A DNA stretch of 61,528 nucleotides from a virus. A model generated the notes under the pieces. The model saw only the letters and a list, made by a program, of their open reading frames with translations, was not told the DNA's origin and did no database searches. Below are positions 59,416 to 60,086 of this stretch, in pieces; the stretch's first letter is position 1, and each line of letters begins with the position of its first letter. A program made the translations under genes and the position numbers. Location: the IMG/VR virus record IMGVR_UViG_3300009100_000002, positions 1 to 61,528 of that record; one strand, written 5' to 3'.

Positions 59416-59910
59416 ATGCCTCCCAAGTCCAAGACCACGCGCGAGCCGCTCGTGGAGATCGACCCCAGGTACGAGCTGTTCAAGCAGTACCTAGTGGAGC
59501 AGGTGGACGAGAAGTTCGCCGAAATCCCGCCCGATCACCTCCAGATCGCCATCCGCAACTACGGCGCGTTCCAGCGCTCCGACATGAACCGGCAGGCGAA
59601 CGAGGAGCGCAAGGCCGGCAACGCCGAGGAGCGCGAGGAGCGCGCACGGAAGGCCGAGGAGCGGCGCCAGGCCGCAGCCGAGAAGCGCGAGGTGGCCGAG
59701 GCGCGCCGGGCCGAGCGCGAGGCGGCCAAGGCGGCCAAGGCCGAGGCGAAGGCAGCCGAGCCTGCGAAGGCCACGAAGGCGGCCAAGGCCAGCAAGTCCA
59801 CTCCTGCTCCGGTCGCCGACCCGACCGCGACTCCGGCGAGCGCTCCCGCTCCGGCGAAGGCCGCGAAGGCGACCAAGCGCGCGGGTACCGGGGCCAAGGC
59901 GCCCTTCTGA
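59416..59910 (+). CDS. Ala/Lys/Glu-rich protein with histone H1-like tail
   Basis: 164 aa, ATG behind AAGGAGAAG. A short folded start (PRYELFKQYLVEQVDEKFAEIPPDHLQIAIRNYGAF), a long single alpha-helix of alternating Glu/Arg/Lys/Ala (about 65-120) and a Pro/Ala/Lys tail ending GAKAPF. The last four residues and their DNA match the SSB-like gene at 1112-1687. Probably binds DNA or a shared replication partner. Confidence 0.55.
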   Translation: MPPKSKTTREPLVEIDPRYELFKQYLVEQVDEKFAEIPPDHLQIAIRNYGAFQRSDMNRQANEERKAGNAEEREERARKAEERRQAAAEKREVAEARRAEREAAKAAKAEAKAAEPAKATKAAKASKSTPAPVADPTATPASAPAPAKAAKATKRAGTGAKAPF

Positions 59911-60086
59911 GGGCGCCGACGATCGGTGCGGCGCTCCCCCGATCCCGGGCGCCAGGTAGAACGGGGGAGCCGCACCCCTAGCGGACGGGTGGGAACCGGC
60001 ACGGACACCGCCCGTCCGTCTAGGAGATCGGCCGAGGGGTTGGGGTGGCTCCTCTCTCGGCCGGTCCCCTAGGTGCAACGCTAGGG
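59898..60086 (+). ncRNA. Highly structured non-coding segment with five tandem hairpins
   Basis: In 190 nt: A GGCGCCC/GGGCGCC (59898-59917, over the stop); B GGTGCGG-CG-CTCCCCC with GGGGGAGCCGCACC (59925-59976); C CTAG-C-GGACGGG with CCCGTCC-GT-CTAG (59978-60023); D GATCGGCCGAG with CTCGGCCGGTC (60026-60066, one G-U); E CCCTAG with CTAGGG (60067-60086). They abut almost without spacers, and no gene fits here. Candidate structured RNA, terminator array or cis-acting DNA site. Confidence 0.55.

Follow-up and report, generated by a model that had tools for sequence, protein, structure and literature searches.

Five abutting hairpins occupy positions 59898-60086 of the window, a term that denotes here the whole stretch of viral DNA that was analysed (61,528 nucleotides), and the array fills the gap of 196 nt (59911-60106) between a Cas4 gene and the gene upstream of it. 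Folded as plus-strand RNA, the array (59890-60095) has a minimum free energy (MFE) of -127.0 kcal/mol; shuffled versions average -101.2 (sd 4.6), which corresponds to a z of -5.62, and none of the 200 shuffles reaches its MFE; the minus strand gives an MFE of -119 and a z of -4.82. Both the succession of five hairpins and a folding energy better than that of shuffled controls agree with the original prediction, whose interpretation is, overall, partly supported. We propose that the array probably represents a multiplied form of the U-poor hairpins found at gene ends, which would act as a partial terminator, as a stabiliser of the mRNA 3' end or as both, and would in this way separate the upstream protein from Cas4.

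The two ends of the virus record (1-123 and 61406-61528 of 61,528 bases) are identical. We therefore read the contig as circular or terminally redundant, which makes the Cas4 and Sak4 genes near neighbours, with one small ORF between them across the contig ends. The plus strand carries 82 of the 84 genes called by a simple script. The genome is actinophage-like and its cassette runs in the order helicase, KAPF gene, Cas4, Sak4 and SSB, the genes that matter here being the following:

59416..59910, plus strand: upstream gene, with a helical N-terminal part, an Ala/Lys-rich linker and the C-terminal tip ...KAPF
60107..61141, plus strand: gene of a Cas4-family (PD-(D/E)XK) exonuclease (PF12705, E 1e-12; phrog_1218, E 2.9e-77)
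71..1108, plus strand: gene of a Sak4-like ATPase / annealing protein (AAA_24; phrog_124, E 1.4e-41; PF13479, E 1.2e-19)
1112..1687, plus strand: gene of a predicted OB-fold, SSB-like protein with the tip ...KAPF (from structure prediction and the tips of relatives)
23719-25107: terminase gene, about 25 kb from the array on the circular map

The ORF of the upstream gene is open from 59329, and its homologues begin at the equivalent of 59416. Relatives of the Cas4 protein were found in 264 records of the phage collection, mostly from Gordonia, Mycobacterium, Microbacterium, Corynebacterium, Streptomyces and Rhodococcus phages, with 5 records from Bacillus and 2 from Brevundimonas phages; relatives of the capsid protein (153 phage records) again come mainly from actinobacterial hosts. 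The host is thus inferred from sequence relatives to be an actinobacterium.

The individual hairpins differ in size and in their separation from shuffled controls:

59898..59917, plus strand: hairpin 1, 8 bp, across the TGA stop codon of the upstream gene; z -4.5, 0 of 200 shuffles as low
59925..59976, plus strand: hairpin 2, 19 pairs in total, with an internal loop and bulges; z -3.0, 3 of 200 shuffles as low
59977..60024, plus strand: hairpin 3, 16 bp plus 3 bp, with one G-U; z -6.3, 0 of 200 shuffles as low
60025..60066, plus strand: hairpin 4, 18 bp including four G-U; z -4.2, 0 of 200 shuffles as low
60067..60086, plus strand: hairpin 5, 6 bp; z -2.8, 5 of 200 shuffles as low

According to these single-hairpin values, hairpins 5 and 2 are the least certain. 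The stems of 7, 14, 11, 11 and 6 bp originally described hold for hairpin 5, but the first four proved longer; likewise, the 190 bases taken as non-coding include part of the upstream gene, since the 5' arm of hairpin 1 consists of its last codons and the TGA (59908-59910) lies in the loop and the 3' arm. Hairpin 2 starts 15 nt 3' of this stop codon, and 20 nt separate the end of hairpin 5 from the start codon of Cas4. We scanned the contig in 615 segments of 200 nt, taken every 100 nt with an extra one at 59890 and each compared with 20 shuffles. Their mean MFE is -77.6 (sd 11.2), and the array has the lowest MFE and the second lowest z among them. Chance folding would have in its favour that the contig is GC-rich and that hairpins scoring at least 8 already number 50-66 per shuffle (ten shuffles) against 87 observed; the shuffle counts of the array, its rank in the scan and the positional conservation described below make such an origin extremely improbable.

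Other contents of the gap were considered. None of the small ORFs in the 196 nt is supported (a 48-codon GTG frame, a frame continuing into Cas4 and three antisense frames). A riboswitch-like alternative fold, pairing 59976-59983 with 60079-60086 to form a junction over hairpins 3 and 4, is 4.1 kcal/mol worse, and the middle pair of this helix has a probability of about 0.01. A tRNA remnant was rejected as the source of the array, no tRNA having been found in the contig. Among the 60 loci scanned, two have a tRNA-Met gene in the pre-Cas4 gap (L026, 4554-4628; L028, 2803-2879), and this gap thus seems to tolerate RNA genes. Finally, a search of 4227 Rfam families gave no match at the gathering threshold in the contig or in ten relatives; the best sub-threshold match is RF00233, a plant-virus tRNA-like element, which scores 29.6 of 40 bits at 59940-60019 of the minus strand (E 1.3e-4, in a search of small size), and such weak matches were taken as chance.

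By consensus scan, the region 59300-60200 contains no canonical terminator site and no sigma-70-type promoter match, so that Cas4 would have no obvious promoter of its own if termination were complete. The five hairpins share with canonical Rho-independent terminators a GC-rich stem but not the U-tract that follows it, as the 8 nt after each of them hold at most 2 T. Judged from the sequence, they resemble the U-poor gene-end hairpin of actinobacteria, a stable hairpin soon after the stop codon that is followed by no more than 2 U within 8 nt. The hairpins of the relatives are mildly enriched in U on their 3' side: at least 3 T within 8 nt follow 18 of 76 and 13 of 56 of them (24% and 23%), whereas random positions give 13% and 12%. 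Hairpins at the ends of genes are already known from GC-rich genomes. In Streptomyces clavuligerus, 353 of 535 highly structured transcript 3' ends are without a U-tract (PMC8269248), and Streptomyces terminators are described as long, stable and covarying hairpins with just 3-4 U in 10 nt (PMC12207403). The array resembles these "HS-U-lack" 3' ends, which are stable, GC-rich, near gene ends and poor in U, in which covariation is reported, and which their authors, in the sections available, liken to I-shaped terminators (PMC8269248, PMC12207403). It differs from them, as far as those sections go, in that five hairpins abut, the first one across a stop codon, and in that it is known from the sequence alone.

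Two other kinds of element were compared with the array and set aside. The ESAS of Cluster K mycobacteriophages are also inverted repeats among non-structural actinophage genes and upstream of gene starts. However, from what is available of their description, they consist of a 13-bp SAS plus 17-bp inverted repeats with one consensus and many copies per genome, and their authors find little support for RNA hairpins (PMC3203893); they are different in kind from the present hairpins, whose sequence varies and whose RNA pairs are kept. RNA-based prophage origins, as described in the accessible part of PMC7157519, sit by parABS and need a non-coding RNA, and this description would set them apart from the array. 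No description of the present hairpins was found in the open literature searched; the five-fold array and the positional conservation beside genes with SSB-type tips appear to be new.

The association with gene ends was counted as hairpins scoring at least 10 that start -5 to +60 nt from a stop codon, genes being called by a simple script. Such hairpins are present at 88 of 780 called plus-strand gene ends, namely 45 of 88 genes with an SSB-like tip against 43 of 692 others (Fisher p 1.5e-24, to be taken as descriptive since the tip pattern was set after the tips had been seen; the loci are related, and the p-values do not treat them as independent lineages). They follow none of 62 Cas4 genes and 22 of the 61 genes called just before Cas4. 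In three relatives read nearly whole, strong hairpins lie 3-15 nt 3' of several stop codons. Hairpins scoring at least 10 are intergenic in 9 of 23, 18 of 26 and 13 of 22 cases, within 6.6, 12.1 and 14.3 kb of intergenic sequence, and inside called genes, which cover most of the sequence, in 14 of 23, 8 of 26 and 9 of 22. For the present contig, 11 of 22 are intergenic (6.9 kb) and 11 of 22 are in called genes. That strong hairpins also occur away from gene ends counts against the gene-end reading. Beside the array, the contig has the following hairpins at gene ends:

1675..1693, plus strand: near-copy ("sister") of hairpin 1, across the stop codon of the SSB-like gene
1712..1755, plus strand: strong hairpin 25 nt after the SSB-like gene; z -7.0
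30430-30477: hairpin after the major capsid gene, starting 4 nt past the gene; score 9.9
51432-51474: hairpin after a gene of unknown function ending at 51421
53883-53943: hairpin after a gene of unknown function ending at 53886

Given these strong hairpins at other gene ends of the contig and of its relatives, we read the array as an elaborated form of a general gene-end feature. As a side observation, hairpins of the form GGCGCCCTTC...GGGCGCC occur at three gene ends (59898-59917, 1675-1693 and 53883-53943), and at two of the three they encode the KAPF-stop end of the protein.

Positional conservation was assessed on viral-contig loci that encode a related Cas4 (the best 80 of 128), on six phages and on the present contig. 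These 87 sequences were reduced to 76 by dropping 11 near-duplicates, two loci (L003, from the same contig as L016, and L010, Hawkeye) standing outside the count. Hairpins were scored by a strict, strand-symmetric inverted-repeat scan, which replaced a lax and over-permissive one. A hairpin scoring at least 12 lies in the 560 nt preceding Cas4 in 41 of 75 non-redundant loci (this contig included). The initial 560 nt of Cas4 itself contain one in 0 of 76 loci, and two upstream controls contain one in 1 of 68 and in 2 of 66; at a score of at least 10, the counts are 50 of 75 before Cas4 against 11 of 76 inside it and 3 of 68 and 6 of 66 in the upstream controls. The remaining 25 of 75 loci have no hairpin scoring at least 10 in these 560 nt, which argues against a gene-end role. 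The two 250-nt bins before Cas4 hold 33 and 42 hairpins scoring at least 10, and a second peak, of 20, 17 and 15 hairpins, falls in three bins where the SSB-like gene ends, whereas each other bin holds 0-11. In the 700 nt before Cas4, 100 hairpins scoring at least 9 were observed against 19.6 per shuffled set.

It is the position that is kept; the sequence is not conserved, and the number of strong hairpins per locus varies from none upwards. Gap folds in seven phages (Yara, Dryad, MrMiyagi, Hawkeye, P3.1, NadineRae and GuyFagieri) each agree at one at least of the two sites, and several other gaps of these phages show no structure; in P3.1, the gap after the Ala-rich gene has a z of +0.6 and the gap before it a z of -6.3. 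A blastn search of the array against phages returned 3 records, all with E about 9, taken as chance. The closest relative found among the best 80 of 128 loci is L011, whose Cas4 is 53% identical and which has two long hairpins before Cas4. The second of these shares GTTNGGGTGGCTCCT in its upper part, and the upper part of hairpin 4 holds GGGTGGCTCCT (60043-60053), common to L011. The only sequence that these searches could align between the array and its relatives is one 15-nt stretch, with L011; when viral contigs were scanned with a 22-nt pattern that surrounds the apical motif, the contig of L011 was the sole match. Hairpins at the two sites of one genome are hardly more alike (mean similarity 7.6, 41 loci) than hairpins of different genomes (7.1), which is no clear signal.

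If the stems were a DNA-level site, G-T and A-C mismatches would be expected to follow composition, and an excess of G-T consequently points to RNA. Before Cas4 we counted 90 GT against 53 AC pairs (63%; 38% in shuffles of the same regions), and after the SSB gene 94 against 34 (73%; 46% in shuffles). GT-rich loci outnumber AC-rich ones 22:12 before Cas4 and 28:5 after SSB, for a shuffled GT-rich share of 33% and 44%. Taken without this composition control, the Cas4 site is weak (per-locus sign test p 0.12; 35:32 pairs at a score of at least 12). In the array itself, hairpin 4 folds to -28.1 kcal/mol on the plus strand and -18.5 on the minus strand, a difference of 9.6 kcal/mol in favour of the coding strand, and hairpin 2 is slightly more stable on the minus strand, which argues against a coding-strand RNA. 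Together with the covariation found in two hairpins of the relatives, the excess of G-U over A-C relative to the composition control indicates selection on the coding-strand RNA. The packaging or recombination site first suggested, or more generally a replication origin or another DNA site of inverted repeats, is therefore very unlikely. The array does lie in the replication/recombination block, its stems are inverted repeats and its minus strand also folds well; yet the G-U bias and the strand preference of hairpin 4 favour RNA, the terminase gene is distant, and the palindrome region 1885-2021, before the primase-helicase gene, would be a better candidate for such a site.

Covariation was found in two recurring hairpins of the relatives. 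The hairpin that directly follows the upstream gene was aligned from 14 loci; both sides are changed in 7 of its 12 pairs, and the covariation score is 0.456 against 0.199 when shuffled. In the hairpin that directly precedes Cas4, aligned from 15 loci, both sides are changed in 11 of 16 pairs, and the score is 0.611 against 0.235. The underlying alignments comprise 15 (A5) and 14 (A6) of the 76 loci, chosen as alignable, so that pairing is partly selected and covariation less so; in their shuffles, two count measures were reached by 15 of 500 and 9 of 500 (28 of 500 for pair types in A6) and the covariation score by 0. The hairpins of the array cannot be aligned with those of the relatives, and this covariation therefore applies to the relatives and not to the present contig. 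Indeed, the best position for covariance model R1 in the contig (59982-60018, 14.7 bits, E 0.7) was not counted as a match, and model R2 returned no row of this contig up to E 5. Among 20 whole records, R1 matched 11, nine strongly and each at the Cas4 site, and two weakly elsewhere. As the whole-record search missed an after-SSB match in L026 that the locus search had found, we do not claim one copy per genome; a pattern scan matched one further site in G014. With one covarying hairpin as query, blastn returned 55 phage records; the 20 listed have E of 2 to 8 and were taken as chance.

A new structured RNA, as initially envisaged, is thus a matter for the relatives, with their two covarying hairpins, for which a specific new regulatory RNA is possible; the array matches neither model and has as homologue just the 15-nt stretch of L011. 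A separate structured or trans-acting RNA, lying in the gap by happenstance, would be compatible with the extreme stability of the array, with the covarying hairpins of relatives and with the absence of an Rfam family at threshold. It appears quite unlikely, given a sequence that is unconserved across relatives, a hairpin number that starts at none and a region without promoter match.

The pre-Cas4 hairpin of the relatives often has the arms CYUGARCG / CYUGAR. A search of the 76 loci gave 13 matches, of which nine precede Cas4 and four follow the SSB-like gene, each on the coding strand (L013, L015, L016, L026, L031, L032, L043, L045, L050, L051, L072, L074 and L078, with a nearly identical gap in L072 and L078), and none in the locus of this contig. 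By eye, apparent G-G and C-C mismatches are kept in its stem. This hairpin may represent a new RNA motif in phages that are known from contigs. It bears on a role in mRNA processing or in the 5' leader of Cas4, by an RNase III-type or similar cut in the stems or by control of Cas4 translation, a reading that we hold unlikely but worth keeping in mind. The early region of phage T7 has RNase III sites between its genes, and the array resembles in its placement these intercistronic hairpins, which separate neighbouring phage mRNAs. Besides the motif itself, the short distance from hairpin 5 to the Cas4 start codon speaks for such a role, and the second hairpin of the relatives, just upstream of Cas4 and beside the ribosome site, also fits a 5' leader. 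In four loci with an apparent small ORF in between (L016, L072, L074 and L078), the first hairpin lies by the upstream gene and the second by Cas4, and in L016 and L072 the second stays by Cas4 despite the ORF after the first. Against it, strong hairpins also follow the SSB-like gene and other gene ends with no nuclease behind them, Yara and Dryad have one hairpin, then a small ORF and then Cas4, and the motif is missing from the locus of this contig.

The favoured explanation is that the array lies in the coding-strand mRNA as a multiplied form of the gene-end hairpins that occur above all after genes with SSB-type tips. Transcription would come from the helicase side through the KAPF-tail gene. 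Hairpin 1, overlapping the stop codon, may be melted or masked by the last ribosome. Hairpins 2-4 would then stop or pause a fraction of the RNA polymerases and leave an end resistant to 3' exonucleases, so that the mRNA of the KAPF-tail protein would be abundant and stable, and Cas4, reached by read-through transcripts only, would be made in smaller amounts. In E. coli, a terminator placed a few bases past a gene is almost fully repressed (PMC4824070), from which we infer that a lone stop-codon hairpin would be weak and that this could be the reason for extra ones; strong terminators are also reported to raise upstream mRNA (PMC11696848). The multi-stem terminator or attenuator of the original prediction is in this sense favoured, by gene-end position, RNA-strand bias and recurrence after the SSB-like gene and other genes, with the reservation that the classical U-tract is missing; termination, stabilisation and the resulting protein amounts are what we infer from this pattern.

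A non-coding architecture is hence kept by position and not by sequence in a recombination cassette shared by phages of Streptomyces, Gordonia, Mycobacterium, Rhodococcus and Nocardia and by numerous viral contigs known from sequence only. If the gene-end role is true, such hairpins would offer phages a simple means to make SSB, recombinase and nuclease in differing amounts from a single operon, and would amount to a collection of natural, U-poor terminators suited to GC-rich bacteria; the covarying pre-Cas4 hairpin is in addition a concrete candidate RNA motif. More speculatively, and with rather low probability, the gap might hold a phage-specific class of cis-acting RNA that ties the dose of the ssDNA-binding proteins to that of the recombination nuclease, for example through autoregulation by a hairpin-binding SSB-like protein, KAPF-tail protein or Sak4, with the CYUGARCG/CYUGAR hairpin as its clearest member and the five-hairpin array as an independent extreme form.

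The SSB-like protein is predicted to adopt an OB fold (mean pLDDT 84). Its best match by Foldseek (E 9e-5) and by VIA-align is PrgE of plasmid pCF10, a ssDNA-binding protein. The two superpose with Z 9.2 and an rmsd of 7.1 over 119 residues at 13% identity, and the next unrelated row has Z 6.4. For the SSB-like protein, the name of the best PHROG (phrog_9460, "methyltransferase") is probably wrong for the family. The products of both the upstream gene and the SSB-like gene end in KAPF. Among 42 relatives of the SSB-like protein, picked partly by their tips, 40 have [DE]PPF as C-terminal end; relatives without this tip are L011, which ends ...RPARR, and L067 and L076, which end ...DDPWG... The SSB of phage HK620 ends in NDYPPF, which is required for Sak4 binding, and the present cassette resembles this Sak4-SSB annealing pair in that the Sak4-like gene adjoins the SSB gene and the [DE]PPF tips of the relatives are like that of HK620 (PMC5928155). 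This comparison bears on the proteins alone, hairpins being unmentioned in the available part of that source (PMC5928155).

Finally, a perfect 26-nt palindrome, ATCACTCCTACGCGCGTAGGAGTGAT, is present at 1885-1910, before the primase-helicase gene, and constitutes a candidate replication origin or regulator site. Its 18-nt arms occur again as an inverted pair 18 kb off (20303-20373), and its core is kept in L011 at about 8545-8565, 3' of the SSB-like gene of that locus.
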